Source: a virus
Virus record (IMG/VR): IMGVR_UViG_3300032284_001603
Span: 1 to 20,175 of that record
Direction: 5' to 3' (one strand)
Length of the DNA stretch: 20,175 nucleotides
Position numbers and translations under genes: made by a program. The stretch's first letter is position 1. Each line of letters starts with the position of its first letter. Below the pieces are notes generated by a model. That model saw nothing but the letters and a program-made list of their open reading frames with translations, made no database searches and was not told the DNA's origin. Below are positions 826 through 16,248 of the stretch, one piece after another.

Positions 826-833
826 GATAAATA
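826..833 (+). promoter_or_regulatory. Candidate late promoter octamer GATAAATA (distal of a pair)
   Basis: Exact GATAAATA in the gap between the repeat protein (stop at 819) and the gene at 865. A second exact copy begins 12 bases further on. With T4-late spacing (start six bases after the octamer) transcription would begin at A839. No convincing -35 element is visible upstream. Confidence 0.5.
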
Positions 834-837
834 TTAA

Positions 838-845
838 GATAAATA
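838..845 (+). promoter_or_regulatory. Candidate late promoter octamer GATAAATA (proximal of a pair)
   Basis: Exact GATAAATA, 20 bases before the ATG at 865. The predicted start, six bases past the octamer, is A851. That would give a 14-base leader whose third base begins the Shine-Dalgarno GAGGA (853-857). This is the copy most likely to drive the ejection-protein genes. Confidence 0.55.
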
Positions 846-864
846 ATACTATGAGGATATATAT

Positions 865-1590
865 ATGAGCGCAGGCAAAGGCACTAGTACTACGGTACCA
901 ACATTATCACCAGAACAAAATGCACAGATAGCGGCACAAACAGGTTTCTTTACTGGAACAGTTGCACCAACTTATCAAAATGCAGTAACTGGTGCAACTA
1001 ATCTGTATAATCAAAATGCAGGCGGTGTCTTAAATGCCGCACAAAACTTAGCTGGTACAGCACAACAAGCTGGTCAACAGTTAGGACAAACAGGGGCATC
1101 AGCATTGAACACTGGTGTAACAGGATTAGAAAGTTTATTTTCACCCGATTACGAACAAAGTCAAATCAATGCAGCCATGGCTCCTGCTCAAGCACAATAT
1201 GCACAAAACTTAGCTGGACAACAAGCACAATTTGGTGGTGCTGGTCAATTAGGTTCAGCACGACAAGCTTTAGCAGGACAACAACTAGCTGGAACAACAC
1301 AAGCTGCAATGGCACAAACAGCCGCACAAATTCAAGCTGGTATAGAATCACAAAAAGCTGCCGCAGCTGGTCAATTAGCTGGATTAGGTCAAGCTGGATT
1401 AGGTCAAGCGATAGGTGCACAAGGACAAGCTGTTACAGCCGCGATGACTCCACAACAATTGTATAATCAATATGCTAGTGTTATATTTGGTACACCAAGT
1501 GCAAGTTACAATCCTAACTTTTCTGGTACTCAATCTACAACTACTAGTGGTTCAAATCTTGGAGCATCCTTTAAGGGTATTTCATTTTAA
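865..1590 (+). CDS. Ala/Gln/Gly-rich virion protein, probable DNA-ejection (internal virion) protein
   Basis: 241 residues. The start is set by GAGGA at 853-857, seven bases before ATG. Residues about 50-195 are extremely rich in Ala, Gln and Gly, with few charges and many AxxAxQ and GLGQAG patterns, so long amphipathic helices are likely. The N-terminus (about 1-45) and the C-terminus (MTPQQLYNQYASVIFGTP, then a Ser/Thr/Gly tail) are different in character. Short Ala/Gln-rich helical proteins just upstream of a transglycosylase-bearing internal virion protein are typical of podovirus ejection modules (compare T7 gp14). The assignment rests on composition and on the next two genes. No catalytic motif is seen. 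It could instead be another minor capsid or tail protein. Confidence 0.65.
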   Translation: MSAGKGTSTTVPTLSPEQNAQIAAQTGFFTGTVAPTYQNAVTGATNLYNQNAGGVLNAAQNLAGTAQQAGQQLGQTGASALNTGVTGLESLFSPDYEQSQINAAMAPAQAQYAQNLAGQQAQFGGAGQLGSARQALAGQQLAGTTQAAMAQTAAQIQAGIESQKAAAAGQLAGLGQAGLGQAIGAQGQAVTAAMTPQQLYNQYASVIFGTPSASYNPNFSGTQSTTTSGSNLGASFKGISF

Positions 1591-1607
1591 TATAAAGAAA
1601 TAAAAAC

Positions 1608-3998
1608 ATGCCACAATATAATCAAGATACTGGTCAATGGGAAGAAACTGATGAAGAAAAACGTCAGCGTGAAGAAACGGCTGCGACTCCTGTACAAAAA
1701 CAGGAGTCAACAACATATGGTGATGGTAGCCAAGAACATAAAACAACTATAAATGTTCCAGCTAATATAGGTCCAGTTAGTCCAACCAATTATAATGCTT
1801 ATATTGGTCAACAAGAATCTAGTAACAATCCCAATATTGGTTATCATTATCCCGTTAACCAAGAAGGACAACGACAATCATCAGCATATGGTACATATGG
1901 TATTACAGGAGCAGCTTATAAAGATGTTCAAGCTGCCAATCCAAAATATGCAAATAGAGATATCACAAGTTTAACTCCAGCTGAACAAACTGAAGTTAAC
2001 AATACATATAAAGGTGTTTTAGCTACACAATTACAAAATCAAGGTATAGAACCAAGCGAATCAAATATACGCGGTGCACATTTCTTAGGTGCAAAAGGTT
2101 TAAGTGATTATTTAACGAATGGTACAATTAGTCCTCAAGCAGCTGCCGCAAATGGTGGAATTCAAAATGTACAAAATATAGTACAAAATAGAATGGGCGG
2201 ACAACCTTCGCCATCAAGTCAACCATCTATTACTGGACCAGTTTCTCCCACTAGTTTACAAAATCAAGCAAATATAGCACCGCCCGGTGAAGCAAGTTAT
2301 ACACCAACACAAAATTTATACAATGCAGCTGGCACAACAGGTGGAATGGGTTTGCAAATGCCAAATCAACAACCACAAATAGCACCTGGTTTTCCAGCTA
2401 GTACCCAAGTAGGTATACCTTCAACAAATGAAAGCGTAAATACATACCAGGCTAATCAAGATAATCCATTAGAATTATTAAAAATACGTAATGATGATAG
2501 TCATCCAGAATGGATTCGTGAACGAGCTGGTAATCGAGCTAGTGAATTGTTAAATCAAGAAGTTAAGCAAAAAGAAGCTACACAACAAGTACAAGATTTA
2601 GCCATGGCAGCCGCACAAGGTGATCCCAAAGCTTCAAGACAAATTGCAAATGAATTATCAAGTAAAGAAGGATCATGGGCAAAGATGATTTTGCTTGGCT
2701 TCATTAGCCCACAATTGGCTGGTGAAGAAGCTGTTAAATTGGGTTTTGGTAATAAATGGCAACCAGCTATGGATGCTAATGGTAAAGCTGGATTGATTGA
2801 ATACAATGCAAAAGGTTTACCATTACGTGGTACATTAGAAAACGGTAAACCAATGACACCAGAAGAACTAACCGCTTATGCATCACAAGGTGTAGGTAAA
2901 GCAACTGATTTAAGTATGACATTGCATCAAGCTCCTGTTAACGGAGAATTGCATACATTTGAATCTAAGCGTACAGCTAGTGGTATGATATATCGTGATT
3001 CTACAGCAAATGGTCAATGGTCTCGTCAAGCTCCAGCTAGTATGACTACAATGGGTCAACAAGATCCTGGTCATATTAAAGGATTAACAGCAGCCAACTC
3101 AATTGTAACTAAAATGAGTAAAGCTAATCAAGATGCAATTGCCGCAACTGGTCGACCATTGTATTCACAAGATCAAATTATACAAGCACGTAATGAATCT
3201 TATTCATCTATAGCAGGTAAACCATTTGGTGGCGGTGCATTACCAGTACCAAGTACAGAAGGTGCTACAACAGCTCCAACAGCTCCAGCAGCTTTCCCGC
3301 GCATAGCACCCGGAGCACCAACTACAGCACCAACGACATCACCAACTACAGCACCAACTACAGCACCAATTGGACCAAAAAGTATAGCACAACAAATATT
3401 AGATTATGATACTCCGGCCCCAACTGGTCCTACTACACCAACTAAGATTGCTATAATGAATGAAGTTAATCGTTTAGCAAGTGAGCAAGGTAAAACATAT
3501 GATGGTTCACAATATAAAATTGCAGCCAAAACTAGACAAGACTTTACAACAGGTAAGCAAGGTCAAGCTGTACAAAGTATGAATGTTGCTGTTGATCATT
3601 TGGATACATTAGATAAAGCCGCTAAAGAATTAAACAATGGTAATATTCCATTGTTTAATAGTATTGCACAACAATATGCTAAAAATACAGGTCAATCTGC
3701 TCCAACGAATTTTGATGCACTTAAATCAATTGTAGGTAGTGAAGTTGCTAAAGCAGTATCAGGTGGTGCAAGTGCATTAGGTGATCGTGAAGAAATTCGT
3801 AGAGAAATTGACAAAGCAAATAGCCCACAACAGTTAGCTGAAGTTATTAAAAAGTATCAACAATTGATGGCTGGTCAAGTTAAAGGTCTAAAACAAACTT
3901 ATGAAAGTGCAGGCTTAAAAGATTTTGATAAAAAACTTTTACCAAGAACAATACAAGTATTAAATTCAGTACAAGAACCGACAAGGAGTAAATGGTAA
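1608..3998 (+). CDS. Internal virion protein with N-terminal lytic transglycosylase domain
   Basis: 796 residues. After a charged N-terminus, residues about 60-170 look like a lysozyme-fold transglycosylase. YIGQQESSNNPN carries the probable catalytic Glu70, SSAYGTYGIT (91-100) matches the usual S-x-YG-x-Y-I substrate loop, and RGAHFLGAKGLSDYL follows. Such domains in virion proteins (T7 gp16, for example) open the peptidoglycan during DNA ejection. A Gln/Pro-rich stretch and a middle helical region come next, then a Thr/Pro/Ala linker at about 547-610. A C-terminal helical domain (about 615-790, VDHLDTLDKAAKELNNGN and GDREEIRREIDKANSPQQL) is of a type common in phage internal virion and tape-measure-like proteins. 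There is no strong Shine-Dalgarno. The stop overlaps the next start. The domain call is firm; the ejection role is inference from domain and context. Confidence 0.8.
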   Translation: MPQYNQDTGQWEETDEEKRQREETAATPVQKQESTTYGDGSQEHKTTINVPANIGPVSPTNYNAYIGQQESSNNPNIGYHYPVNQEGQRQSSAYGTYGITGAAYKDVQAANPKYANRDITSLTPAEQTEVNNTYKGVLATQLQNQGIEPSESNIRGAHFLGAKGLSDYLTNGTISPQAAAANGGIQNVQNIVQNRMGGQPSPSSQPSITGPVSPTSLQNQANIAPPGEASYTPTQNLYNAAGTTGGMGLQMPNQQPQIAPGFPASTQVGIPSTNESVNTYQANQDNPLELLKIRNDDSHPEWIRERAGNRASELLNQEVKQKEATQQVQDLAMAAAQGDPKASRQIANELSSKEGSWAKMILLGFISPQLAGEEAVKLGFGNKWQPAMDANGKAGLIEYNAKGLPLRGTLENGKPMTPEELTAYASQGVGKATDLSMTLHQAPVNGELHTFESKRTASGMIYRDSTANGQWSRQAPASMTTMGQQDPGHIKGLTAANSIVTKMSKANQDAIAATGRPLYSQDQIIQARNESYSSIAGKPFGGGALPVPSTEGATTAPTAPAAFPRIAPGAPTTAPTTSPTTAPTTAPIGPKSIAQQILDYDTPAPTGPTTPTKIAIMNEVNRLASEQGKTYDGSQYKIAAKTRQDFTTGKQGQAVQSMNVAVDHLDTLDKAAKELNNGNIPLFNSIAQQYAKNTGQSAPTNFDALKSIVGSEVAKAVSGGASALGDREEIRREIDKANSPQQLAEVIKKYQQLMAGQVKGLKQTYESAGLKDFDKKLLPRTIQVLNSVQEPTRSKW
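3315..3362 (+). repeat. 12-bp tandem repeat coding an Ala-Pro-Thr-Thr linker
   Basis: Four units of GCACCAACTACA type (3315, 3327, 3339, 3351) with one or two substitutions. They code APTT-APTT-SPTT-APTT within the Pro/Thr linker of the internal virion protein. The linker probably separates the transglycosylase half from the C-terminal helical domain. Repeat number may vary between relatives. Confidence 0.8.
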
Positions 3999-4651
3999 TG
4001 CCAAGAAACGTAACAATACAATTTGATGATGGTACAAGTCATGTCTATGAAGATGTGCCAGATGAAATACATGATGACGAAGTTAACGCAAGAGCAACTT
4101 CACAATTTGGTAAAGATGTTTCTAATGTACAAAATGAAACACAACAAAAACAAGATCAAAGTCCTACAATAGGAACTGCATTGGTAGGTGGTGCACAAAC
4201 AGGTGCAAATATGATAGGACAAGCTTTAGGTCATCCTTTAGTACAATATGGTTTAGAATTAGCTGCTGGTAAAAAGTTTATTGTCGATCCAATATTAAAA
4301 TCAATGAACAACAGACCTGGCATGACACCGTCTGCACCTGTTGCACCAACTACACCGGTTAATCCTGCCGCCGGAGGATCAATGCTTAATCCAACATGGG
4401 ACGCAGCATTAAAACAACCAATTAGTCAACCTAGCATTATACAAAGAGCAACAGAATACACAAGACAAGGTATGGCTCGTGCACATGCAGTAGGTGATAT
4501 TGCAATGCAAAAAGTTATGCAAAATGCAGGCAATATCGGTAGAGCAGGAGTAGGCCTAGGTGCATTAACATATAGTCAAGGATTAAATCCAAACGAACAG
4601 GCTGAGTTGCAACGCAGACAACAAGTGCCTTTTCAACCATATTCTAGATAA
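3998..4651 (+). CDS. Probable internal virion/ejection protein
   Basis: 217 residues from ATG 3998. Its first base is the last base of the preceding TAA. An in-frame ATG at 3992 lies only three bases after AAGGAG (3983-3988), whereas 3998 lies nine bases after it, so 3998 is preferred. The N-terminus (VTIQFDDGTSHVYEDVPD, then EVNARATSQFGKDV) matches a small N-terminal module I know from phage internal virion and tail-associated proteins. Residues about 55-95 are Gly/Ala-rich and hydrophobic (TIGTALVGGAQTG, GLELAAGKKF) and could insert in a membrane. A Pro-rich linker and a helical, basic C-terminus follow. Its place after a gp16-like protein suggests a partner in DNA ejection. The function is inference. 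Confidence 0.65.
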   Translation: MPRNVTIQFDDGTSHVYEDVPDEIHDDEVNARATSQFGKDVSNVQNETQQKQDQSPTIGTALVGGAQTGANMIGQALGHPLVQYGLELAAGKKFIVDPILKSMNNRPGMTPSAPVAPTTPVNPAAGGSMLNPTWDAALKQPISQPSIIQRATEYTRQGMARAHAVGDIAMQKVMQNAGNIGRAGVGLGALTYSQGLNPNEQAELQRRQQVPFQPYSR

Positions 4652-4659
4652 GGGTAGCA

Positions 4660-5097
4660 ATGAATACATTAGACCAATTAAAAGAAACATACAGTGATAA
4701 TTTTGTAAACAGTTATCGCATACATTCAATACATTTTAACATTGAGGGTGAGAATTTTTATAGTTGGCATAAACTATTACAAAAGATGTATGAAGATTCA
4801 GAAGCTATACAAGATGATCTTGGCGAATTGATTCGTGCATGTGGTGAATATGCACCAGAAACAATTGGTGATATCATGAGCTATGCTGATATGGAAGATA
4901 CAATCGCACCAAGCTCTGATCCAAAAGATTTATTAAAATTAGTTCTTGAAGGTCAAGAACATATGATTAATAGTTATATTAAATTAGAAGAAATTGCTGA
5001 AGTAGAAGAATATGATGATATTGCAAATTTTGCACAAGATCGTATTCGTAAACATAAGAAATTTGCTTGGATGCTAAGAGCCAGCTTAGAATATTAA
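4660..5097 (+). CDS. Dps/ferritin-like protein
   Basis: 145 residues. IHFNIEGENFYSWHKLLQ followed by DDLGELIRACGEYAP matches the helix A-B region of the Dps family (DNA-binding, iron-storing dodecamers that protect DNA from peroxide). Aligning by spacing with E. coli Dps gives ligands H25 (H51), H37 (H63), D52 (D78) and E56 (E82). The usual Asp four residues after the second His (D67) is Q41 here. The rest is a predicted four-helix bundle of normal Dps core length. The Lys-rich DNA-binding tail is absent at the N-terminus, though the C-terminus has RIRKHKK. It follows the ejection genes after an eight-base gap and overlaps the converging acetyltransferase gene by 12 bases. It may protect phage DNA or manage host iron, or be a virion component; that is inference. 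Confidence 0.8.
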   Translation: MNTLDQLKETYSDNFVNSYRIHSIHFNIEGENFYSWHKLLQKMYEDSEAIQDDLGELIRACGEYAPETIGDIMSYADMEDTIAPSSDPKDLLKLVLEGQEHMINSYIKLEEIAEVEEYDDIANFAQDRIRKHKKFAWMLRASLEY

Positions 5098-5577
5098 ACG
5101 TTTATAGCAATAACTACCACGAATATCATAATTATTTTTCTCATGTAACTTTATGAAACCATCACGATCTTTACGCATAGTAGTTGAACATATGATTGGA
5201 ACTTTGCAAGTAAAAGCAAAAGCTTCCCAAATTGCCATCATTTCTTTAATTAACTTAACACGTAATCTTATTGGTAATTGCATATCTAAATGTGCCATGC
5301 GAATTACAACCATTTCGTCATCTGACCATGGAGCTCGTTCATTGCGAACCGCCCATGTATATGCTAATAAATTGCCTTCATCATCTTTAGCTATTGAGAC
5401 CAATTCGTCATTTGGCATAAAAAATTGTTTAACTATCGCTAACGTGATATTTCTACTATAAGCAACAGGATCAGGTTTAAATATGGTATCAATTTCAGAT
5501 TCAAAGTTTTTTTGTGTTAGTGAAACAATGTTTGACACATCTAATCCACTAGCTGGAGACCAAGAGTAATATTTCAT
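5086..5577 (-). CDS. GNAT-like N-acetyltransferase, degenerate
   Basis: 163 residues from ATG at 5577-5575. An in-frame ATG exists 30 bases upstream, but AAAGGA sits six bases before the 5577 start, so the shorter form is chosen. LVSIAKDDEGNLLAYTWAV looks like GNAT strands beta3-beta4. MVVIRMAHLDMQLPIRLRVKLIKEMM sits where motif A should be, but the acetyl-CoA-binding Q/RxxGxG/A loop is replaced by PIRLRV. DGFIKLHEKNNYDIRGSYCYKR is a typical C-terminal motif B. Substrate is unknown, and activity is uncertain given the loop. It is the only minus-strand gene in the window. It runs into the 3' end of the Dps-like gene and diverges from the small terminase gene across a 54-base gap. Confidence 0.65.
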   Translation of the reverse strand: MKYYSWSPASGLDVSNIVSLTQKNFESEIDTIFKPDPVAYSRNITLAIVKQFFMPNDELVSIAKDDEGNLLAYTWAVRNERAPWSDDEMVVIRMAHLDMQLPIRLRVKLIKEMMAIWEAFAFTCKVPIICSTTMRKDRDGFIKLHEKNNYDIRGSYCYKRLIF

Positions 5578-5618
5578 TTCGATTCCTTTCGATCTGATAT
5601 TTAACATAAAATAAAAAC

Positions 5619-5626
5619 GATAAATA
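5619..5626 (+). promoter_or_regulatory. Candidate late promoter GATAAATA, leaderless geometry
   Basis: Exact GATAAATA separated by five bases (ACATT) from ATG 5632. With the T4-late spacing the transcript would start at A of the ATG. No Shine-Dalgarno is seen between the octamer and the start or just before it, which fits a leaderless message. The site lies in the divergent gap beside the minus-strand acetyltransferase gene. Confidence 0.6.
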
Positions 5627-5631
5627 ACATT

Positions 5632-6015
5632 ATGAAAAAAAGAATAGAACCAAGCATAGATAAAATAGTTGAAGTGCCAATCATACCGGTTAAAAAGTTA
5701 ACTGGTAAAGGTGGTGCTAGACCAGGTGCAGGCAGAAGAAAAGGTAGTACTCAAGAAATTAGTGTAAACACTTTATTAGCTAAACTTAAAGAAAAGTCTG
5801 GTGGTAAAGATTATGAAGATTTATTGGTTACTGATTTTTTGATAGCTAGAACTAAAGATCCACAACTTACTCACAAATATCATACATTGATATTAGGAAA
5901 AGTTATGAATACTTTAGCTAAAATTGAAGTAACAGATTCGGCTGATGCTGTTGAAAGCAAAAAATTAGCATTTGCTGATGCTTTAGCTAAGTTAACCGGA
6001 ATTGAGAAAGACTAA
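5632..6015 (+). CDS. terS: Probable terminase small subunit
   Basis: 127 residues. KGGARPGAGRRKGSTQE (about 25-42) is the Gly/Arg/Pro-rich motif often found at the N-terminus of phage small terminases and of related DNA-binding packaging proteins. It is followed by a helical segment (ISVNTLLAKLKEKSGGKDYEDLLVTDFL) and a second helical region (about 80-120) that could mediate oligomerisation. The small terminase recognises phage DNA and hands it to the large subunit, coded at 9355 in the same direction. Here the two are separated by about 3.3 kb of small genes, unlike the usual adjacent pair. No ribosome-binding site precedes ATG, and the start lies five bases after GATAAATA. The motif is not exclusive to small terminases, so the call is probable rather than certain. 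Confidence 0.6.
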   Translation: MKKRIEPSIDKIVEVPIIPVKKLTGKGGARPGAGRRKGSTQEISVNTLLAKLKEKSGGKDYEDLLVTDFLIARTKDPQLTHKYHTLILGKVMNTLAKIEVTDSADAVESKKLAFADALAKLTGIEKD

Positions 6016-6023
6016 ATATAATT

Positions 6024-6173
6024 ATGCCACTTATTAAATCAACATCGAATAAAGCATTTTCAAAAAATGTCAAAAAGGAAATAGCTAATGGTAAGCCAAC
6101 TAAGCAAGCTGTGGCAATAGCCTATGCAACAAAACGCACGGCAGCTAATAAATCTAAAGGAAAAACAAAATGA
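6024..6173 (+). CDS. Small basic conserved phage protein
   Basis: 49 residues, too short for many gene finders. The sequence MPLIKSTSNKAFSKNV, then GKPTKQAVAIAYATKR, is a well-known small-protein pattern in phage genomes (MPLIK.. KKA.. GKPQKQAVAIA). It is strongly basic, ends in a Lys-rich tail (NKSKGKTK) and is probably helical. ATGA at 6170-6173 couples it to the next gene. There is no good Shine-Dalgarno. Five bases upstream of ATG lies ACTAAATA, a six-of-eight match to the late octamer at the same spacing as at 5619. The function is not established; nucleic-acid binding is plausible from charge. Confidence 0.7.
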   Translation: MPLIKSTSNKAFSKNVKKEIANGKPTKQAVAIAYATKRTAANKSKGKTK

Positions 6174-6541
6174 AATCAAAAGATCAAGACGATAAAAACC
6201 TAGCTTTTAATGGTCAAGGTGGCGATGGTTATAGTCGCAATGCTAGAACAGGTACAGAACAAGTAAATCATTGGTCACGTACTGAATCAAGTGATAAGTT
6301 AATCAATAAGGGTCGTGGTCCTACAGTAGGTAATCAAGATTATCGTTTAATGGATGTAGGTCCTTCAGCAACCAAAGATGCATATAGAGCCCCTCCAACA
6401 ACTAAATCAGTTCCAAGTACAAAATTTACTAATATTGATAGCATTAAAGGTAAATCACAAGATCGTGGTCAAGGTGGTACTGGTGTAGATAAACCAAAGA
6501 ATAATTGTTCAATTAACTTTGGACCTAAGAGTCAATATTAA
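6170..6541 (+). CDS. Hypothetical Gly/Ser/Asn-rich protein
   Basis: 123 residues, starting inside the previous gene's stop (ATGA overlap), preceded by AAAGGAAAAA with a short spacer. The composition is hydrophilic and low in hydrophobic residues (GQGGDGYSRNARTG, KGRGPTVGNQDYR, GKSQDRGQGGTG), so it is probably mostly disordered. I do not recognise a family. It belongs to a tightly spaced small-gene cassette after the small terminase, so a virion accessory or packaging-related role is possible. Confidence 0.65.
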   Translation: MKSKDQDDKNLAFNGQGGDGYSRNARTGTEQVNHWSRTESSDKLINKGRGPTVGNQDYRLMDVGPSATKDAYRAPPTTKSVPSTKFTNIDSIKGKSQDRGQGGTGVDKPKNNCSINFGPKSQY

Positions 6542-6556
6542 TATTAAGGATATATA

Positions 6557-6796
6557 ATGGCAACTAAAAAAACAACACATGGCGCTCACATGAAAAAAGC
6601 CGAGCATCACATGAAAGAAGCGCATAAGTGGATTCAAAAAGCAATTGAGCATCCTGGTGCTTTACATAGAGAACTTGGTGTACCAATTGGTAAAACAATT
6701 CCAGCTAAAAAATTAGCTAAGGCTGAAAAAGCCCCAGGTGTTGAGGGTAAACGTGCACGTTTAGCTGAAACATTAAAAGGTTTCCGTAAAGGATAA
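6557..6796 (+). CDS. Small basic conserved phage protein (GALHRELGVP motif)
   Basis: 79 residues with AAGGA upstream at a suitable distance. A His/Lys-rich N-terminus (HGAHMKKAEHHMKEAHKW) leads into KAIEHPGALHRELGVPIGK, then IPAKKLAKAEKAPG and RARLAETLKGFRKG. The GALHRELGVP-(x)n-IPAKKL-(x)n-R-A-LA-TLK pattern recurs in many phage genomes as a short uncharacterised protein near structural genes. It is very basic (many Lys and His), so DNA or RNA contact is plausible. The His cluster could bind metal, but no defined site is seen. Function unknown. Confidence 0.75.
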   Translation: MATKKTTHGAHMKKAEHHMKEAHKWIQKAIEHPGALHRELGVPIGKTIPAKKLAKAEKAPGVEGKRARLAETLKGFRKG

Positions 6797-6803
6797 GAAA
6801 TAT

Positions 6804-7182: not shown

Positions 7183-7479
7183 ATGAAAACAACAACTACT
7201 GGTCATAAGATCAATCAAGCACAAGGTCCTCGTACAGGTAACGAAGGTACACCAAGTAAACGTAAAGCTTTTAATGAAGCTAAAGCTACTACTGGTAACG
7301 AAAGAGCTTCAATAGCAAATATGGTTACTTCAGCATTAGAAATGCGCGGACGTGGTCAACGAGGTCATGATGATCCTGCATTGGAAAGTATGCATGATAA
7401 TACAGGTCCTAAAACTAATCCAACAGCTAATGGTTCTAAATTGCCTGGCAAATATAAGAGTCCTAAAAAAATTGGTTAA
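7183..7479 (+). CDS. Hypothetical basic, probably disordered protein
   Basis: 98 residues with a strong AGGAGG nine bases upstream, inside the end of the preceding gene. It is basic and polar (HKINQAQGPRTGNEGTPSKR, TGNERASIAN, LEMRGRGQRGHDDPAL), with one short probable helix (SIANMVTSALEMRGRG). The end is Lys/Gly/Pro-rich (KLPGKYKSPKKIG). The composition resembles the protein at 6170. It is the last gene of the small-protein cassette and is followed at once by a GATAAATA octamer and a hairpin. Function unknown. Confidence 0.65.
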   Translation: MKTTTTGHKINQAQGPRTGNEGTPSKRKAFNEAKATTGNERASIANMVTSALEMRGRGQRGHDDPALESMHDNTGPKTNPTANGSKLPGKYKSPKKIG

Positions 7480-7482: not shown

Positions 7483-7490
7483 GATAAATA
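7483..7490 (+). promoter_or_regulatory. Candidate late promoter GATAAATA just before a hairpin
   Basis: Exact GATAAATA beginning four bases after the preceding stop codon. The five-base spacer GAATT brings the T4-type start to A7496, which is exactly the first base of a perfect 12-bp hairpin. It probably serves the genes from 7553 onwards, unless the hairpin terminates that transcript. Confidence 0.5.
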
Positions 7491-7495: not shown

Positions 7496-7535
7496 AGTAA
7501 AAGAGTGATTGGCACTCTTTTACTTTATAGTTTTT
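7496..7535 (+). terminator. Perfect 12-bp hairpin with T-rich tail: terminator or 5' stabilising hairpin
   Basis: The arms AGTAAAAGAGTG (7496-7507) and CACTCTTTTACT (7513-7524) pair fully around the five-base loop ATTGG. TTATAGTTTTT follows. The T-tract is interrupted, so termination may be partial. The position fits termination of the small-protein cassette. It also fits a protective 5' end for a transcript started at the octamer at 7483. Confidence 0.7.
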
Positions 7536-7552: not shown

Positions 7553-8389
7553 ATGAAAAAACAAAACACACCCGCGGCAGAAAATATTTGGGGAGAAGAT
7601 ATCAACGCTGATAATCTTAAACCCTTAAAACAAGAACTTAAACAAGAACTTAAAGAAGCATCAGATGCATTTGATGTTGAATACAATAAATTAAAGCCAA
7701 CTAGTCCAGAAGAAATCTCAATTTCAAGTGATTTTGATATTGAAGGCTTAATGACAGACTTTCCCACAGCAACAGATTTAGAACGTTTTGTATATGACGT
7801 AACATCAGTTACTCTTAACCTTAAGGGACGTGCAAATAAATTAAAATATGAAGTTGCATTAGCTGTATTGAATGGTCAGGACATTGATCCTAAATATATT
7901 AGTGGAAACAATCCATATATTGACAAAGCTGAATTAATTCCCACAGAAGATTTGAAAGAAGTTCCTGCTAGAGATATTACTTTACCTGCACGAAATGAAA
8001 TTCAAAATAGTTTTTATTCACCTCATATTCCTCATCCAAATGAAGAAGAAAGAGCGCAAGATAAAAAAGTACATATGATGTTTCGTAAATATAAAAATGG
8101 AATGATTAGTTATGAAATATTAGGTCCACTTGAACAAAAAGCTCATGGTGAAAAACTTGACAAATTTGGTCGCACTCGTCCAGAAGTTATCAAATGGATC
8201 GATCCAAGAACTGGTGAACAAGTTATTATGCGTGAAGATGGTACTCTTACTCCACAAGGTAAACGTTTGCGTGGAATGATGCAATCATTTAGAGTTAATA
8301 AAACCAATCAATGGGAAATATGGATTGATCGTGAATTAATTAGCATTGATAGTTCAGCTAAAGATAATCCGTGGGATTTATCAAAATAA
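7553..8389 (+). CDS. Hypothetical phage protein
   Basis: 278 residues from ATG 7553. GAAAGG (7540-7545) lies seven bases upstream, so the in-frame TTG at 7538 is rejected. The N-terminal quarter is acidic and helical, with a small repeat (LKQELKQELKEAS). The middle contains FPTATDLERFVYDVTSVTLN and a Lys-rich helix. The C-terminal half has a more globular look with many aromatic and charged residues (MMFRKYKNGMISYEILGP, KWIDPRTGEQVIMREDG, NQWEIWIDRELISID). No catalytic motif or membrane segment is seen. I do not recognise the family. It opens the block leading to the large terminase. Confidence 0.7.
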   Translation: MKKQNTPAAENIWGEDINADNLKPLKQELKQELKEASDAFDVEYNKLKPTSPEEISISSDFDIEGLMTDFPTATDLERFVYDVTSVTLNLKGRANKLKYEVALAVLNGQDIDPKYISGNNPYIDKAELIPTEDLKEVPARDITLPARNEIQNSFYSPHIPHPNEEERAQDKKVHMMFRKYKNGMISYEILGPLEQKAHGEKLDKFGRTRPEVIKWIDPRTGEQVIMREDGTLTPQGKRLRGMMQSFRVNKTNQWEIWIDRELISIDSSAKDNPWDLSK

Positions 8390-8405: not shown

Positions 8406-8822
8406 ATGAAAGTTAAAAGAAATAAAAAAGGCGATCCAAAATTATATTATAGACAATATTACAATGCATATTATTGTGCCCAATATCGAGGAATCGATTG
8501 GGAGTTTACATATGATGAATGGGTAAAATGGTGGGGACCAGATATCAATAATAGAGGTACATATATTGGGCAATTAGTAATGGCTCGCTATAATGATACT
8601 GGTCCTTATAATGTTAATAATGTTAAAAAAATAAAATCAAGTGAAAATGTAAGTGAGGGCAATACAGGTAAAATACTTAGTCCAGAACATTTAACTAAAT
8701 TAAGTATAGGCAGAGAAAAAGCATATGCTAAAAAAAGATTAATAAAAGAACAAATATTAGAACAAGAATTAGAACAAGAATTAGAACAAGCAAAGGAATT
8801 AGACAATGATAATGAAAAGTGA
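8406..8822 (+). CDS. Homing-endonuclease-like small protein lacking an HNH site, NUMOD3-like tail
   Basis: 138 residues from ATG 8406, five bases after AGGTGA. An in-frame GTG at 8397 is rejected. The N-terminus is basic and Tyr-rich (YYRQYYNAYYCAQYRG), followed by WEFTYDEWVKWWGP and GQLVMARYNDTGPYNVNNVKKIKSSEN (GPYNVNNV at 66-73). The GPY-xx-NV-(x)n-N-E pattern is familiar from phage HNH/homing-endonuclease-type proteins, but no His-Asn-His catalytic triad is seen. SEGNTGKILSPEHLTKLSIG (84-102) resembles the NUMOD3 DNA-binding repeat. The C-terminus is an acidic helix made of short repeats. It could be a domesticated DNA-binding remnant of a homing nuclease. Its stop overlaps the next gene by 17 bases. 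Confidence 0.55.
   Translation: MKVKRNKKGDPKLYYRQYYNAYYCAQYRGIDWEFTYDEWVKWWGPDINNRGTYIGQLVMARYNDTGPYNVNNVKKIKSSENVSEGNTGKILSPEHLTKLSIGREKAYAKKRLIKEQILEQELEQELEQAKELDNDNEK
8748..8783 (+). repeat. 12-bp tandem repeat coding Glu-Gln-(Glu/Ile)-Leu
   Basis: Three units of GAACAAGAATTA type (8748, 8760, 8772; the first has two differences). A partial fourth follows. They code EQILEQELEQELEQ, an acidic heptad-poor helix at the C-terminus of the protein at 8406. Confidence 0.75.
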
Positions 8823-9144
8823 TGGCACAATTAGTCCAAACTTTAGAAATAAAGAAATTGAAGGTGCAGTAAAACAAAAAGAAGAAAATATGGTTCGAGA
8901 TACTTTAATTTTACAAAAAGTTAATAAAGCTCACCGTGATGCTTTTAAAGAACGTTTTCCAGGTCAAATCGAACATTGTATGCGTTTAACAGCAGAAAGA
9001 TTGCAAGGTTTATTAACCAAAAAATCAACAGATATGACAGACACTTCTACATGGGCAGGATCAGCTAATGAAATTCATGATCTTTCACATGGTTTATATT
9101 ATCTATCAATTATGAATCAACATTATCCTACGGAGGAAGTATGA
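8806..9144 (+). CDS. Hypothetical phage protein
   Basis: 112 residues. ATG 8806 lies eight bases after AAAGGA (8792-8797). The alternative ATG at 8812 is 14 bases away, so 8806 is preferred. It is charged and probably mainly helical (NMVRDTLILQKVNKAHRDAF, QIEHCMRLTAERLQGLL, NEIHDLSHGLYYLSIMNQHY), with no known motif. It overlaps the previous gene by 17 bases and the next by four (ATGA), so translation of the three is probably coupled. The position just before the large terminase suggests a packaging or assembly role at most; no function is claimed. Confidence 0.65.
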   Translation: MIMKSDGTISPNFRNKEIEGAVKQKEENMVRDTLILQKVNKAHRDAFKERFPGQIEHCMRLTAERLQGLLTKKSTDMTDTSTWAGSANEIHDLSHGLYYLSIMNQHYPTEEV

Positions 9145-9354: not shown

Positions 9355-10968
9355 ATGATATCTAACGAAACGCTTATGGCGAGAGCGTTACGCTGGGCAG
9401 TTGATGAGAATAAATTAACGATCCCTAGTTTATTAACAATACCAGGTCCTTTAAGAAATCAACTTGAAGACCTGGCTATTAGTGTAGCTGAAGATATGAA
9501 ATATAATCAGCTTAAATACTTTAGACCATTTGAGCATCAACTAAGATTTTTTTCTACTGGAGATAATCCAAGACGTGGAATATTAGCTGCCAATCGTATT
9601 GGTAAAACAGTTTCAACTTGTTATGAAACAGCAATGCATTTAACTGGACTATATCCCGATTGGTGGGAAGGTTATCGATTTGATCATGCAATCACATGCA
9701 TGGTAGCAGGTGAGGGTTGGTCACAAGTTGCGCTTGTATTACAAAATGAATTGTTAGGATCACAAGATGTTAAAATTACAGAAAATCTTGGCACTGGCGC
9801 TATACCTCGTACTTGCATTGTTACTAGTACTATGCGGAATGATGGAGCTAATTGCATTGGGGTTGAAATCAAGCACAAAACAGGTGCTAATAGTTATCTT
9901 TTATTTGCTAACTATACACAAGAAGTTAGACAATTACAAGGATTCAAATTAAACTTAGCTGTATTTGATGAACAACCACCCGATGACTTCTTTTCAGAAA
10001 TGGTTACTAGAACAGCTACAACACAAGGTAAAGTTCTTTGTTCGTTTACACCCTTAAAAGGACTAAATGGATTAGTAAGTAAATTTTGGAACAAAGAAGA
10101 AGGATATGAATTTATTCGTGTAGCATGGGAAGATGTACCTGAATATGATCCATGGGGACAACCTTTTTTGCTTATGGAAACTAGACGGCAACTAGAAAGA
10201 GATTATCTTCCACATGAACGTGAAGCTCGTATAGCCGGTAAACCTGTTATGGGTAAAGGTGCTGTATTTCAAATTGCTAATTGGCCACTTTATAAAACAG
10301 GTGAATTTAATTTTTCAGAAATGCCATATATTCAACGTATTATTGCGCTTGATTTGGGATTAATTAATGACAAAACTGTAATTTCATTAATGTATTGGGA
10401 TCCTTATGATAAAAATGCATATTTACATAAACAAATTATTGTGCAAGGTATTGAAGAAGCTGTCCCCACTCAGTATATCAATCATCTCCTTCGTCCTGAA
10501 GTGTTTGGTACTCCTATTGTTTTACCTGCTGACGCAAGTACTCAAGGCAGATATACTATGAGTGCCAATTCAATTCGTGAATTATTTGAACAATACGAAT
10601 TAAACGTTTATGAAAAAGCTATTATGAATCCACCTGATTCGCAAGGTAGAATAACAAATCATAAAGCATATGGTATAAATCAAATGCGTCAAATGTTAGA
10701 AGTGGGCAGTTTGATGATCAATGAAAATTGTACACATTTTTTAACTGAAGCACAAAATTATTTTGTTGATGGGCAAGGTAGATTTTCAGATCCAGATGAT
10801 TGTATTGATTCAGCTAGATATGCAATATTAGGTTGCTTGAATGGTTTAGCCGAGCCCTGGGACAATAGAACCAGACAACAACGAATGATGGCACAAAGAG
10901 ATAGGTATGTTCCCCAAAGAGATGAAAGTTCTCTTCCCGCATGGAAAAAATCATATAATCCATCGTAA
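9355..10968 (+). CDS. terL: Terminase large subunit (packaging ATPase-nuclease)
   Basis: 537 residues, normal length. The ATPase domain has Walker A ANRIGKT (79-85), after an adenine-motif-like region with FEHQLRFF. Walker B is AVFDEQ with D205-E206, and a motif III-like CSFTPLKG sits at about 229-236. The C-terminal RNase H-type nuclease shows the first acidic site in IALDLGLINDKT (D333). The other likely metal ligands are D393 (PADAST) and D485 in DPDDCIDSARYA. The enzyme docks on the portal, pumps DNA into the prohead using ATP, and cuts the concatemer. No good Shine-Dalgarno precedes ATG, and tight linkage to the upstream stop suggests translational coupling. Basis: direct motif reading plus the neighbouring portal gene. 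Confidence 0.95.
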   Translation: MISNETLMARALRWAVDENKLTIPSLLTIPGPLRNQLEDLAISVAEDMKYNQLKYFRPFEHQLRFFSTGDNPRRGILAANRIGKTVSTCYETAMHLTGLYPDWWEGYRFDHAITCMVAGEGWSQVALVLQNELLGSQDVKITENLGTGAIPRTCIVTSTMRNDGANCIGVEIKHKTGANSYLLFANYTQEVRQLQGFKLNLAVFDEQPPDDFFSEMVTRTATTQGKVLCSFTPLKGLNGLVSKFWNKEEGYEFIRVAWEDVPEYDPWGQPFLLMETRRQLERDYLPHEREARIAGKPVMGKGAVFQIANWPLYKTGEFNFSEMPYIQRIIALDLGLINDKTVISLMYWDPYDKNAYLHKQIIVQGIEEAVPTQYINHLLRPEVFGTPIVLPADASTQGRYTMSANSIRELFEQYELNVYEKAIMNPPDSQGRITNHKAYGINQMRQMLEVGSLMINENCTHFLTEAQNYFVDGQGRFSDPDDCIDSARYAILGCLNGLAEPWDNRTRQQRMMAQRDRYVPQRDESSLPAWKKSYNPS

Positions 10969-10986
10969 TTAATAAAAGGAAATAAT

Positions 10987-11121
10987 ATGAGTAAAGGAAG
11001 CAATCAAAGACCAAGAGAAATACCACTAGAAGATTTTTCAGCTAGATGGGAAAAGATATTTGGTAACAAAGACTTAAAAGAAAAAAAATATCCTAAGCCA
11101 AATGAGCCAAAATCAAAATGA
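10987..11121 (+). CDS. Small conserved phage protein between terminase and portal
   Basis: 44 residues, below usual gene-finder limits. AAAGGAAA lies a suitable distance before ATG 10987. The protein reads MSKGSNQRPREIPLEDFSAR, then WEKIFGNKDLKEKKYPKPN. The MSKGS-x-RP-(x)n-F-x-x-x-W-x-x-IF pattern is a familiar short phage protein of unknown function. It is basic and hydrophilic. Its TGA stop (11119-11121) overlaps the first two bases of the GATAAATA octamer that precedes the portal gene. Confidence 0.75.
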   Translation: MSKGSNQRPREIPLEDFSARWEKIFGNKDLKEKKYPKPNEPKSK

Positions 11122-11127
11122 TAAATA
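11120..11127 (+). promoter_or_regulatory. Candidate late promoter GATAAATA upstream of portal
   Basis: Exact GATAAATA overlapping the stop of the 44-residue protein. The predicted start is T11133 or A11134, giving a leader of about 20 bases that includes AAAGG (11136-11140). The A found at +1 in the other copies is one base off here. Confidence 0.5.
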
Positions 11128-11152
11128 ATTATTATAAAGGTAAACCTTCAAT

Positions 11153-13432
11153 ATGTTAGATATAAAAAATATCCCTGTTAGTAATATTAATCAAAATAAA
11201 AATATTAATGCCAGATTTGTCCGAATGAAGAATCAAATGGACACAAAAATGGCAAGTTATCTTCGTTATTTAGGAACTAAAAATGCGGTCAACAGAGCCT
11301 CCGACTACCATTATTTGTGCCTTGCTGTTACTGATAGTACTGCCCCTGTTAATGGTATTGATTACATTCATCCTAGTGTCAAACCTGTCGTGGATTACGC
11401 AACGGCTGTTATCGCTAAAGGTCTTATGCCAAACGGTGAGATCAATTTTGAATTTGTAGCTGATAGTGAAGATGATGAAGTTGCGGCTAGACAAGCAACT
11501 GAAATGGTTAAAAAAATCGTAAATCAAATGAATGATCCACATTTTATTTTAGAACGATGGATCATGGATGCATGTATGCATAAAAATGGTATGATGATGA
11601 TCAAACCAGTTAGAGAACAAGTTGTTCGTTATGTAGATACACAAGGTACATTAGATCAATTGAAAGCATTTGAACAACAAGCTGCCGAATCAGGTTTAAC
11701 CGCATTGCGTCAAAATCGTAGAAAACTTACAGTTGATATGAATAAAGTAATGGCTGAAGTTAAACAAAATCTTGGTGAAAATAGTCAAGAACATGCTAAA
11801 AATATTGCTGATAAATTTATATCTGGCTTAAATGACTTACCAGAAGATAATCAAGAAAACTTACAAGATGAAGTTGGACAAATGCATGAAGATCATCTTG
11901 ATCAGCAAGAATCAATTATCAATGATGCTATTAATCGCAATACAATTTATAAAGCAAAATACAAGTTAACTGGTTATAGTGTTAACATTAAATTTCATCC
12001 TATCGCACAACATTATTGGATTTGTGATCCCACATGTCCTGAAATGAAAGATCAACCATTTTGTGGTTATTATGATCCAATGACAATTCAAGAATTAACT
12101 GATTTATATCCTGGTGTAGATTTAGATGAAGTTAGGTTACATGCACAATATAACATGAACGGAGCTTATCAAGCTGGATCAGTTCTTAATAACTTAGCAA
12201 TACATGCAAGAGATTCAGTACCTGTAATGGGTATTCCTGTTTCATCAGCCGCATCAGCAGATCCAGATTCACGTATGGTATCAGTTGTAACTGTATGGAA
12301 CAAATATGATATTGACGGAGATGGAGAATTAGAATTAATTGAATTAATTTATTCTGGTTCATATATCATTAGTGCAAGAGAAGTTGAATTTATTCCAGTT
12401 GCTAACATGTGTCCTAAGCCATTACCAGGGAACTTCTATGGCATGAGTATTGCTGAATCAGTAATACCTATGCAAGAATACAACACATCCGCTGCAAGAG
12501 CAGAGATACAATTAGGATTATTAACAGCAACACCTAGGATTGGTGTAAAGCCAGATCGTGTTGATTTTGAAATGATGCAAGATGGTGAATCAGCCATTTT
12601 TATTTTAGATAGTAAATTCGACCCAACAAAAGACGTTTATCCAATGCCTCCTCCAAGCGGCAATTTGCAATTTTTAGAAGTTGCAATGAATCGTATACAA
12701 CAAGATACAATGGCCATGGTAGGAATGACTACACCAACAGATGTGTTTAATCCAGAAGTAATGGCTCCAGGCAATTCAGGTGTAAAATTACAAATGGCAT
12801 TGTCTCCAAATCAAATTATACAAGACAACACAGTTCGTAACTCAGCCGAAGGATTAAAAGAAGCTTTATGGTTAATATGGCGTACATTGATTCAGTATGG
12901 TGATGATTATGGAATCAAAAAACTAGCACAAGCTTCTCATCCAGACAAAACTCCTGTCTTTTTAGATTATCAAGCATGGGACGATATGAACTTTTGTGAA
13001 CGTAAACAATTGCATTTAGAATTATCATTAGGTATGATGAGTGAAGAAAATGCATTAGGTAGATTGCAAATTATACAAAAATGTCAAACTGATTTATATA
13101 CAGTTACACAAGGTATGGTACAAGCAGGTACATTAACTCCAGATATGTATAAAAAAGTTAAGAAACCATTTGCTGATACATTATATGTTCTTGGTGTAAA
13201 AGATTGTGATGTTTATCTTCCAACTGATGATGAAGTAAAAGCTATGATACAACAAGGTCAAGCATCAGCAAAACAAAAAGGACCTAGTCCAGCTGATCAG
13301 AAAGATATAAGTGTTGCTCAATTGAATCAAGCAAAAACACAACAAATTGGTGCAGAAGTAACAGGTAAAGATGCACGTAGTCAATTAGATTATATGGCAC
13401 AAGCTGTTGGTAAACCAAAAGTTTATTCTTAA
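11153..13432 (+). CDS. Portal protein, long P22-like type
   Basis: 759 residues, close in size to P22 gp1. It forms the ring at the unique capsid vertex through which DNA enters and leaves. Family features include an N-terminal region (DYATAVIAKGLMPNGE), the wing-type segment WICDPTCPEMKDQPFCGYYD, WNKYDIDGDGELELIEL, PKPLPGNFYGMSIAESVIPM, and the helical region IQQDTMAMVGMTTPTDVFNP with GVKLQMALSPNQ. The segment D386-I-D-G-D-G...E397 matches the EF-hand loop pattern DxDxDGxxxxxE, a variant often seen in this portal group. The C-terminus is helical and Gln/Ala-rich. It follows the terminase and precedes the scaffold, the standard order. AAAGG lies 12 bases before ATG, an unusually long spacing. 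Confidence 0.9.
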   Translation: MLDIKNIPVSNINQNKNINARFVRMKNQMDTKMASYLRYLGTKNAVNRASDYHYLCLAVTDSTAPVNGIDYIHPSVKPVVDYATAVIAKGLMPNGEINFEFVADSEDDEVAARQATEMVKKIVNQMNDPHFILERWIMDACMHKNGMMMIKPVREQVVRYVDTQGTLDQLKAFEQQAAESGLTALRQNRRKLTVDMNKVMAEVKQNLGENSQEHAKNIADKFISGLNDLPEDNQENLQDEVGQMHEDHLDQQESIINDAINRNTIYKAKYKLTGYSVNIKFHPIAQHYWICDPTCPEMKDQPFCGYYDPMTIQELTDLYPGVDLDEVRLHAQYNMNGAYQAGSVLNNLAIHARDSVPVMGIPVSSAASADPDSRMVSVVTVWNKYDIDGDGELELIELIYSGSYIISAREVEFIPVANMCPKPLPGNFYGMSIAESVIPMQEYNTSAARAEIQLGLLTATPRIGVKPDRVDFEMMQDGESAIFILDSKFDPTKDVYPMPPPSGNLQFLEVAMNRIQQDTMAMVGMTTPTDVFNPEVMAPGNSGVKLQMALSPNQIIQDNTVRNSAEGLKEALWLIWRTLIQYGDDYGIKKLAQASHPDKTPVFLDYQAWDDMNFCERKQLHLELSLGMMSEENALGRLQIIQKCQTDLYTVTQGMVQAGTLTPDMYKKVKKPFADTLYVLGVKDCDVYLPTDDEVKAMIQQGQASAKQKGPSPADQKDISVAQLNQAKTQQIGAEVTGKDARSQLDYMAQAVGKPKVYS

Positions 13433-13440
13433 AATATACA

Positions 13441-13448
13441 GATAAATA
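13441..13448 (+). promoter_or_regulatory. Candidate late promoter GATAAATA upstream of the scaffold-capsid block
   Basis: Exact GATAAATA eight bases after the portal stop. The predicted start A13454 lies just before the Shine-Dalgarno GGAAAG (13456-13461), giving a leader of about 16 bases to ATG 13470. It probably drives the small protein, the scaffold and the capsid gene up to the terminator at 16210. Confidence 0.55.
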
Positions 13449-13469
13449 AACATACGGAAAGAATAGCAT

Positions 13470-13814
13470 ATGATAGATGAGAATAGCATAGAATTTTTTA
13501 ATAACAGATTAACATTTAATGTTAATGATTTTAAAAATTTGACACCAAGTCAAAAAGATAAAATTAGGCATTATGGAAGTCAAGCAGAAACATTACTAAA
13601 GAATCGTGATTTAGCAATGTTTGTGCATCATTTTAAATTTGAGTTAGCCGATGAGTTAATTGAAACTCACGGCTACTCTCAAGAAGATAATAACGAGAAG
13701 ATTGCGATAGCGCATGAACTCAAAGGCATAGATAAGTTTATAAACAGCTTGAAAAGAGCTGTTGTTTTAAAAAATCGTGTAGGTAATGCAGAAATTGCAC
13801 CCGAAGAAAATTAA
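13470..13814 (+). CDS. Hypothetical protein between portal and scaffold
   Basis: 114 residues with GGAAAG eight bases upstream of ATG. Probably all helical and charged (LTPSQKDKIRHYGSQAETLL, AMFVHHFKFELADELIETHG, NEKIAIAHELKGIDKFINSL). No catalytic motif is visible. Position between portal and scaffold is often taken by small head-assembly proteins, but I recognise no family. The gap to the scaffold start is 11 bases, with AAAGGAAA as its ribosome-binding site. Confidence 0.65.
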   Translation: MIDENSIEFFNNRLTFNVNDFKNLTPSQKDKIRHYGSQAETLLKNRDLAMFVHHFKFELADELIETHGYSQEDNNEKIAIAHELKGIDKFINSLKRAVVLKNRVGNAEIAPEEN

Positions 13815-13825
13815 AGGAAAATTAA

Positions 13826-14983
13826 ATGACAACAACAATCAGCCCTAATGCTTCAACAAGCACGGTCACTGAAACAAGTGCAGTCCCAAGTTTAGATTCT
13901 ATAGCATCTAAAATGACCGCAATGCGTGAAAACACATTACGTAATCAAATTAGACCTACTGAACAGACTGTAACAGGTGAAAATGAATCGGCAGAGTCAT
14001 CGACCCCTGTGGCGCCAGAGCCAGAAATTGCTGAATCCAGCGATGATAATTTTGAAGAAAGCAATCATGAAGAAGATACCCCAAATGAAGATTTGGTAAG
14101 TATTGATTCAGAGAATTCTACAGCAGACGAACTTATTGATTTTATCGAATTTGCAGATACGAACCCGAACGCTAAGTTCAAGTTCATGCGAAATGGTAAA
14201 GAAGTAGTTATTGATGCAAAGAAAGCAGCTTCAATATTAGGTCAAGGAAGCGCAATACATGAAGAAGCCAGACAGTTAAAAATTGAACGAGCTGACTTTG
14301 ATGAGTATCGTAAAGAATCTCATATAAGACAAGAAGGTTTGACTTTAGCAATGGAATTTACAATTGAACCAAAGTTGAAAGGTGCATATGATGAAATTGT
14401 CAAAACACAAAATTATCAATCTACATTTCAACAACAATTAGCTAATACGAGGGATCCAGCGCAAATTGCAAGGATTCAAGCAAGTATGGCACAAAATGAA
14501 GCTTATATTCAGCAACAGCAAAATGTGATCGGGCAACTGAAACCAGCTGTAGATGAATTTAGACAAATTCGTAGCCAACAAGTTAATGAAAGATTAGATA
14601 CCGCACGTAAAAACTTTAAAGACAAAGAGTTGAAAAACGAATATGTTTATAAAGAAGTTCGTGATAAGGTAGCTAAACTTTGGCCTCAAGCTAATCAAGA
14701 ATTAATTCCGGGAGTTGCTAATATCGATTTAATTTCATCTGATGAAAATTTATTAAGTTTAGTCAGAGATGGATTAAGATATCGAGATAAACCTACTCAA
14801 AAATCAGCCGGGTCGTCAATGGCAGCATTGACACAAAGACGCGGTAGTTCAACTAACAATCGTGGCGCTAATGATGATATTAGCAAACTTCGTGAACAAG
14901 CCAAGACCGGTGATAAAAAAGCCGGAGACAATCTTTTGATGGCACAACTTAGTAAAATTCGTGCGTCAAGAGGTGGTAGATAA
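13826..14983 (+). CDS. Scaffolding protein
   Basis: 385 residues. The N-terminal third is Ser/Thr/Glu/Asp-rich and probably disordered (residues about 1-100, with SSDDNFEESNHEEDTPNEDL). A small folded segment follows (DELIDFIEFADTNPNAKFKF then NGKEVVIDAKKAASILGQGS). A long helical, coiled-coil-prone region spans about 145-275 (RQLKIERADFDEYRKES, QQQQNVIGQLKPAVDEFRQI). A basic, Gly/Arg-rich C-terminus (SKIRASRGGR) is typical of the capsid-binding end of scaffolds. Such proteins guide procapsid assembly and leave or are cut before packaging. Position directly before the capsid gene supports the call. No protease motif is seen. Confidence 0.8.
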   Translation: MTTTISPNASTSTVTETSAVPSLDSIASKMTAMRENTLRNQIRPTEQTVTGENESAESSTPVAPEPEIAESSDDNFEESNHEEDTPNEDLVSIDSENSTADELIDFIEFADTNPNAKFKFMRNGKEVVIDAKKAASILGQGSAIHEEARQLKIERADFDEYRKESHIRQEGLTLAMEFTIEPKLKGAYDEIVKTQNYQSTFQQQLANTRDPAQIARIQASMAQNEAYIQQQQNVIGQLKPAVDEFRQIRSQQVNERLDTARKNFKDKELKNEYVYKEVRDKVAKLWPQANQELIPGVANIDLISSDENLLSLVRDGLRYRDKPTQKSAGSSMAALTQRRGSSTNNRGANDDISKLREQAKTGDKKAGDNLLMAQLSKIRASRGGR

Positions 14984-15016
14984 AATAGCCAATCAATTCA
15001 TTTTAAGGAGAATATT

Positions 15017-16186
15017 ATGGCAGAAATTACAACCAGTCAAATTGGTAACGGTACTACAGCTTATGGTTCTGATATCGTTGTTAAAGACTTAGATTTAGAT
15101 GTATCAAATCGTGTAAAAGACGATACCCCTGTGTTAAACATGGCAATGAGTAAAAAACGTAAAGTTAATTCAACTTTGCCTTTGTGGACAGATGATATCT
15201 ATCGTTTGCCTGCAGTGCAAGCTCAAGTTGAAGGTGCTACAGTTGCAACATCACAAGCTGAGTCAAATCAGCGTTACAACTTAGGTAACTATACTCAGAT
15301 TTTCAGTACAGTTATTGCCGCTTCAGGTACAGCTCGTGCTGTTATGCAATCTGGTGGTGATCCACAAGCTTATCAAGAAGTCAAGCAATTGATTGAAATG
15401 ATGTTTGACGTTGAGGCTCAATTGGTACGTAATGACCAAATTGGTACAAAATACGCTGGTCAAACTGGTACAGCATCTGGTTTACCATCAGGTCAAACTG
15501 GCCGTCGTATGGGTTCATTGTCAGCTTTTGCTGGTACACAATCTTTCAATACAACAAGTGGTTCAGTTACAGGTTTGAATACATGGACAAATAATGAAAG
15601 TTCAGATAGTGCTTCAGAAGCAACTGATACATTCAATATTTCAGCTAATGGTTCACAATTTTATACTGGTACATTCACTAATCAATTGTTCTCACCAGCT
15701 TTATACAAGCAATTGGTAACTGTTGCTGAACAACGTTATAACGCTAAAATTCGCACTATTGTTGCTCCTACAAGTTTAAGAACTAGTATCAGTGATAACA
15801 TTCCTCAATCAAGAGGTATTAATCGTGTGAACTCAGAGCGCGGTGATACAATTGCTACATACGAAGGTGACTTCAATTATAGCTATGAAGTATTTGATTC
15901 ATGGATTATGAATCAATCAGGTATGAGCAATAGCATTTACTTCTTGAATGAAGATGTTATTCAATGGGGTGGTTTGCGTGATCTAGGACCTAACAATGAA
16001 GTATTCTCAAATGCTGACGCATCTTTGGATCAGTTCATTATGGAAGGTACATTGATTGTACGTAACCCAGCTGGTGTTGGTTTGTTAAACAACATTATGG
16101 CTGGTACAGATCAACAAGCTAACTTACCAGGTGCACGTCCTTCAGTATTGGTATCACGTACTAATCAAGGTGCAGGTGCAGTTTAA
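15017..16186 (+). CDS. Major capsid protein, SU10/DUF5309-like HK97 fold
   Basis: 389 residues with an excellent AAGGAG upstream of ATG. NYTQIFSTVIAASGTARAV, GGDPQAYQEVKQLIEMMFDV and EAQLVRNDQ match the E-loop and spine-helix region of the SU10-type major head protein family. Later features are FSPALYKQLVTVAEQRYNAK, IVAPTSLRTSISD and YSYEVFDSWIMNQS. It builds the icosahedral or elongated shell. Codon use differs from neighbours: about 15 of 25 Leu codons are TTG, against mainly TTA and CTT in the terminase, as expected for the most highly expressed gene. A strong terminator follows 23 bases after the stop. Confidence 0.9.
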   Translation: MAEITTSQIGNGTTAYGSDIVVKDLDLDVSNRVKDDTPVLNMAMSKKRKVNSTLPLWTDDIYRLPAVQAQVEGATVATSQAESNQRYNLGNYTQIFSTVIAASGTARAVMQSGGDPQAYQEVKQLIEMMFDVEAQLVRNDQIGTKYAGQTGTASGLPSGQTGRRMGSLSAFAGTQSFNTTSGSVTGLNTWTNNESSDSASEATDTFNISANGSQFYTGTFTNQLFSPALYKQLVTVAEQRYNAKIRTIVAPTSLRTSISDNIPQSRGINRVNSERGDTIATYEGDFNYSYEVFDSWIMNQSGMSNSIYFLNEDVIQWGGLRDLGPNNEVFSNADASLDQFIMEGTLIVRNPAGVGLLNNIMAGTDQQANLPGARPSVLVSRTNQGAGAV

Positions 16187-16209
16187 TCTTAATTAATTAA
16201 GTTAATCTA

Positions 16210-16240
16210 AAAAAAGGCTCTTAGGAGCCTTTTTTCTTTT
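16210..16240 (+). terminator. Rho-independent terminator after the major capsid gene
   Basis: The arms AAAAAAGGCTC (16210-16220) and GAGCCTTTTTT (16225-16235) form an 11-bp stem with a four-base TTAG loop. A GC-rich core (GGCTC/GAGCC) and a T-rich tail (to 16240) make it a textbook terminator. The next GATAAATA begins at 16241. Confidence 0.9.
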
Positions 16241-16248
16241 GATAAATA
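16241..16248 (+). promoter_or_regulatory. Candidate late promoter GATAAATA, leaderless geometry
   Basis: Exact GATAAATA immediately after the capsid terminator, with five bases (CTATT) to ATG 16254. T4-late spacing puts the transcript start on the A of that ATG, the same geometry as at 5619. The 25 bases upstream are terminator sequence, so a conventional -35 box is very unlikely. Confidence 0.65.

Follow-up and report, generated by a model that had tools for sequence, protein, structure and literature searches.

Predicted T4-like single-element promoters across a clade of small uncultured phages

We analyzed a viral DNA stretch of 20,175 bases (the window), which constitutes a whole IMG/VR record, and conclude with a probability of roughly 70% that the seven copies of the octamer GATAAATA in it belong to a clade-wide, T4-like set of single-element promoters. 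T4 late transcription is the textbook case of a sigma factor that reads one short element and is assisted by the replication clamp. The sequences show where the elements lie, which way they point, that they are conserved, and how they are spaced. In the proposed mechanism, the consensus RMTAAATA-N5-A(+1) would start the virion and packaging units and some other units, with host core RNA polymerase directed by a specificity factor whose sole contact would be this -10-like element, in the manner of gp55 in T4. Transcription would begin six bases past TAAATA, often on the A of a start codon to give leaderless late mRNAs, and at other sites the +1 position would open a short leader that includes a ribosome site; the early genes would probably be read by the ordinary host sigma-70. 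The elements resemble T4 late promoters in sequence and probably also in the way they work, and we do not claim that they are part of the T4 system.

The positions given for the seven octamers in the initial annotation are exact, and all copies lie on the plus strand and point with the genes (Table 1). All seven are wholly noncoding although noncoding sequence makes up just 452 of the 20,175 bases (2.2%). The noncoding gaps are A/T-rich; seven of them span 20 bases or more, and all of these contain GATAAATA except the one ahead of the major capsid gene. Every ATAAATA in the window is part of a GATAAATA. In a comparison with shuffled sequence, the seven copies stand against a mean of 2.03 and a maximum of 6 in 100 dinucleotide shuffles; the seven octamers are more than chance. 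The A six bases past the octamer was recovered at six of seven copies, all except the one at 11120. That the minus strand is free of copies is correct for the exact octamer but not for the element, which occurs there as TTAAATA at 5604-5598. As a unit the exact octamer is real but too narrow: it misses the CTAAATA at 6012-6018, which has the six-base spacing to the ATG at 6024, and it was abandoned as a definition, relatives carrying CTAAATA or ATAAATA at the same places.

Table 1. Promoter elements and associated features in the window, with predicted transcription starts (+1)
Feature	Position	Strand	Remarks
GATAAATA	826-833	+	predicted +1 at 839; first of tandem pair, gene 865-1590
GATAAATA	838-845	+	predicted +1 at 851; short leader, GAGG before ATG 865
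TTAAATA	5598-5604	-	before the window's only clear minus-strand gene, 5086-5577
GATAAATA	5619-5626	+	predicted +1 at 5632 = A of ATG, gene 5632-6015; predicted leaderless
ACTAAATA	6011-6018	+	predicted +1 at 6024 = A of ATG, 49-aa gene
GATAAATA	7483-7490	+	predicted +1 at 7496; gene 7553-8389 follows
12-bp stem-loop	7496-7524	+	begins at predicted +1
Large terminase gene	9355-10968	+	phrog_2; query used for finding relatives
GATAAATA	11120-11127	+	predicted +1 at 11133 (T); leader with AAAGG
Portal gene	11153-13432	+	phrog_1216; downstream of 11120 element
GATAAATA	13441-13448	+	predicted +1 at 13454; unit 13470-16186
Unit of three genes	13470-16186	+	one gene of unassigned function, scaffold-like gene, major capsid gene (major head protein phrog_1328)
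Terminator-like hairpin with T-run	16210-16235	+	directly upstream of 16241 element
GATAAATA	16241-16248	+	predicted +1 at 16254 = A of ATG, gene 16254-16838; predicted leaderless
TTAAATA core	17794-17799	+	doubtful further member; 13 bases before tail-fibre-like gene 17812

Relatives of the window stood in for a whole-genome scan for the octamer. Searches of IMG/VR with the terminase and the capsid gathered 155 related loci, and the comparison set consisted of 20 long relatives of 34-40 kb, one of which was compared over 40.0 of its 40.5 kb. At least six relatives (G003, G004, G012, G014, G019, and G020) carry direct terminal repeats of 109-191 bases, as expected of circular assemblies, and are apparently complete; the low-complexity repeats at the ends of G005 and G010 are weaker proof of completeness. 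Because at least six relatives end in direct repeats, the full genome size of the clade is probably about 35-40 kb. Nearly all genes of the relatives lie on one strand. One relative with a name, MW202484, shares 52% terminase identity with the window. The clade is large, and its small phages are uncultured and not T4-like. Neither of two routes pointed to a host: terminase relatives in bacterial genomes reached only 28-34%, and 24 half-genome pieces contained a single tRNA gene, tRNA-Gln. The early gene content in the replication regions varies widely among the 20 otherwise similar relatives and includes different primase and helicase types and methylase-like, ParB-like, and GIY-YIG-like proteins (G004 was analyzed, the others inspected by eye).

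At the same positions in the 20 long relatives the element takes the form RMTAAATA (R = A/G, M = A/C), with TAAATA as the sole part common to all and CTAAATA as common as ATAAATA. When the same genes were aligned across genomes, CTAAATA or ATAAATA, and sometimes GTAAATA, was found at the same place, and the element was kept although the flanking sequence had diverged. A logo of 259 clade sites gave A 39%, G 43%, T 10%, and C 8% at the first octamer position and A 40% and C 39% at the second, which rules out the G-first rule of the initial annotation. Nor is G required, because the strand bias of ATAAATA holds with any base in front (350 sense versus 33 antisense in the related loci). The upstream part of the same logo was flat, with nothing further upstream conserved, in agreement with the reported absence of a -35 box. 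Within 80 bases upstream of core genes, TAAATA occurred 159 times in sense and 18 times in antisense orientation, the strongest result among the 15 hexamers of composition A4T2, and some of the 18 antisense copies belong to a conserved minus-strand gene. The arrangement TAAATA-N5-ATG was found 271 times in sense and 3 times in antisense orientation across the 155 loci, which are related and partly overlapping and hence yield non-independent events. A better guide than such pooled counts is given by the 21-genome counts and by the sister clade of MW202484, with 2 sense and 3 antisense occurrences in 44 loci. Some TAAATA sites precede replication-region genes, so the set does not consist of late promoters alone.

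In the early regions of four relatives (G001-G004), TAACWGAAY boxes precede GATAAATA at a distance of a few bases, and sigma-70-like hexamers are often present upstream. A combined box of TAACWGAAY and GATAAATA was considered as a general early-region feature and dropped, as it is confined to one subclade.

The base six past TAAATA is most commonly A (54% of the 259 clade sites), and the best reading of this spacing is the T4 geometry, with TAAATA at -11 to -6 and A at the predicted +1. At 46 sites the distance from TAAATA to the start codon is exactly six bases; a second peak of start-codon distances, at 20-28 bases, would fit a leader carrying a ribosome site. In the window, the base six past the core is the A of a start codon at 5619, 6011, and 16241, and the many clade sites of this kind would imply leaderless late mRNAs. 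For the element at 16241, a leaderless late mRNA is predicted as the simplest reading, because the terminator-like hairpin adjoins it upstream and the protein encoded by gene 16254-16838 is conserved from its first residues. No TAAATA-N5-ATG arrangement was found in the late stretches of T4 and Aeh1 that we examined. The titles and abstracts returned for leaderless late phage mRNAs, and for T4-like late promoters in podoviruses or satellites, held no match.

Homologues of gene 865-1590 in the relatives are preceded by CTAAATA or ATAAATA. The ACTAAATA at 6011 overlaps the stop codon of gene 5632-6015 in front of it, whose putative product is small-terminase-like as judged from a GGARPGAGR motif, and AATAAATA stands before the homologue of the 49-aa gene in relatives. 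The homologue of the tail-fibre-like gene in one relative (G018) is preceded by CATAAATA. Before the homologues of gene 7553, nearly all relatives have a stem-loop immediately after the promoter element; the arm sequences differ and the hairpin is similar, with z-scores of about -2 to -6 against base-shuffled sequence. RNAalifold found no consensus for this hairpin, because the arm sequences do not align. The stem-loop at 7496-7524 is possibly an insulating terminator or a 5' stabilizer. Elsewhere in the window, positions 6170-6541 and 7183-7479 encode two small clade-conserved proteins with repeated GRGPTKGN-like glycine-rich motifs, and positions 4660-5097 hold a ferritin/Dps-like gene (PF00210); Dps-type genes are also present in phiEco32 and 7-11.

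The minus-strand gene, which probably starts at 5577 rather than 5607, provides an orientation control. In most relatives a minus-strand TAAATA occupies the same place and is followed by an AAGGA-type ribosome site. The orientation of the element thus follows the gene, which disfavors an artefact of strand composition. This is the only conserved minus-strand gene; its product appears GNAT-like by eye, and the closest PDB structure, 2aj6, matches weakly (E 0.023).

The initial annotation had assigned the elements to a dedicated gp55-like sigma factor, and this assignment found no backing. Both gp55 (phrog_234) and sigma region 2 (PF04542) were absent in 58 records, made up of 21 records and 37 further ones that are partly fragments; ORFs were identified mechanically. 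As a control, PF04542 matched phiEco32 gp36 and 7-11 gp47. A gp55 profile built from ten diverse phages gave a best E value of 0.31 over all ORFs of 21-22 genomes, and hhalign with gp55 reached a best probability of 5.3%, against at least 99.8% in leave-one-out controls. With phiEco32 gp36 and 7-11 gp47, phmmer gave no match and hhalign reached 8% at best, compared with 95% for each other. There was no match to phrog_12791 in 21 records, nor to the gp45-type sliding clamp (phrog_223), also suggested at the outset, in the same number, at least six of them apparently complete. The clade-conserved helical protein of 112 aa encoded before the large terminase (8806-9144) was considered as a hidden sigma factor and set aside, as it had no significant PDB match; its AlphaFold2 model consists of long helices (pLDDT 83, pTM 0.53). 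The reader may be an unrecognized phage protein, a host sigma factor, or machinery that a co-infecting T4-like phage would supply. We consider the first of these the most likely, at about even odds: a protein encoded by one of the phage's unassigned genes, either diverged or non-homologous.

A host alternative sigma factor, rather than a phage protein, would account for the failure to find a phage-encoded sigma in the searched records, and a clade this widespread could have adapted to one host group. TAAATA, however, does not fit TANNNT, the pattern of sigma-70 -10 elements, and we know of no host sigma factor with a TAAATA-type single-element consensus, so that we regard this reader as rather unlikely. 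Still less probable is that the element is a T4-superfamily promoter read in trans by gp55, gp33, and gp45 of a co-infecting T4-like phage, so that complete virions would be made under a borrowed transcription program. Such a scheme agrees with the match in core and spacing to T4 and Aeh1 late promoters and with the lack of a reader in the 58 records, but these small phages have terminase, portal, and capsid genes of their own, and the leaderless spacing is missing from the T4 and Aeh1 late stretches examined.

The motif could instead act in RNA, as a translation signal or processing site, given its closeness to start codons and the sigma-70-like promoter just upstream at some early-region sites, which would place it in the transcript. 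This is very improbable: the six-base sites leave no room for a ribosome site before the ATG, at other sites the motif stands off by a further 20-60 bases and a ribosome site is present separately, and the copy at 16241 comes after a terminator-like hairpin. The A/T-richness of the noncoding gaps might suggest chance occurrence, which is refuted by the 271 versus 3 sense and antisense counts and by conservation across divergent relatives; other A4T2 hexamers also show less asymmetry, and the odds left to chance are negligible. A T4-like promoter set shared by the clade is the reading that we prefer.

Late promoters of T4 and Aeh1 are known already, as are dedicated single-element late promoters in phiEco32 (PMC8948821). 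Within the reach of our searches, what is new is the combination: a T4-type code that runs through a large clade of small phages but is missing from its sister clade, that has no detectable reader, and that comes with many starts predicted to be leaderless. The T4 late promoter TATAAATA lies at -13 to -6, and its first base varies among T4-like phages (PMC1524935, PMC2984593); the Aeh1 late element is CTAAATA from -12 (PMC1524935), and the S-PM2 late promoter is NATAAATA (PMC1524935, PMC2984593). The clade has the same TAAATA core and variable first bases; no upstream element is conserved in it, and its sequence spacing to the predicted +1 would fit the T4 distance. The T4 superfamily uses gp55 with gp33 and gp45, whereas the phages of the clade are small and unrelated and gp55 and gp45 were not found in the records searched; the clade also places the predicted +1 on the A of ATG at many sites, unlike the T4 and Aeh1 stretches. 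From the initial proposal of a T4-style late code, the core sequence, the spacing, the missing -35 box, and the occurrence in phages that are not T4-like are supported, but the G rule and the link to gp55 and gp45 are not.

Overlapping early and late promoters have been described in RB49 and S-PM2 (PMC2984593), and the one subclade with sigma-70-like hexamers just upstream of its early-region GATAAATA is reminiscent of them. The Ackermannviridae motif CTAAATAcCcc (PMC7283392) has the CTAAATA core in common with the clade, which is without the conserved CcCc extension and consists of very different phages. The middle and late promoters read by phiEco32 gp36 are also single elements, tAATGTAtA, with the start 6-8 bp downstream (PMC8948821), and the phiEco32 terminase is distantly related to that of the window; its promoter core differs from TAAATA, and its sigma factor has no detectable relative in the clade. 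The uncultured sister clade of MW202484 (about 40 kb) has the terminase (52%) and structural genes such as those for portal and capsid in common with the clade of the window but, unlike it, is without the TAAATA promoter code. A code that is shared with T4 and missing in the sister group, and whose known reader was not found, would point to convergence via another factor or to the use of someone else's factor. The many sites with the predicted +1 on the A of ATG would also contribute a large number of phage mRNAs predicted to be leaderless.
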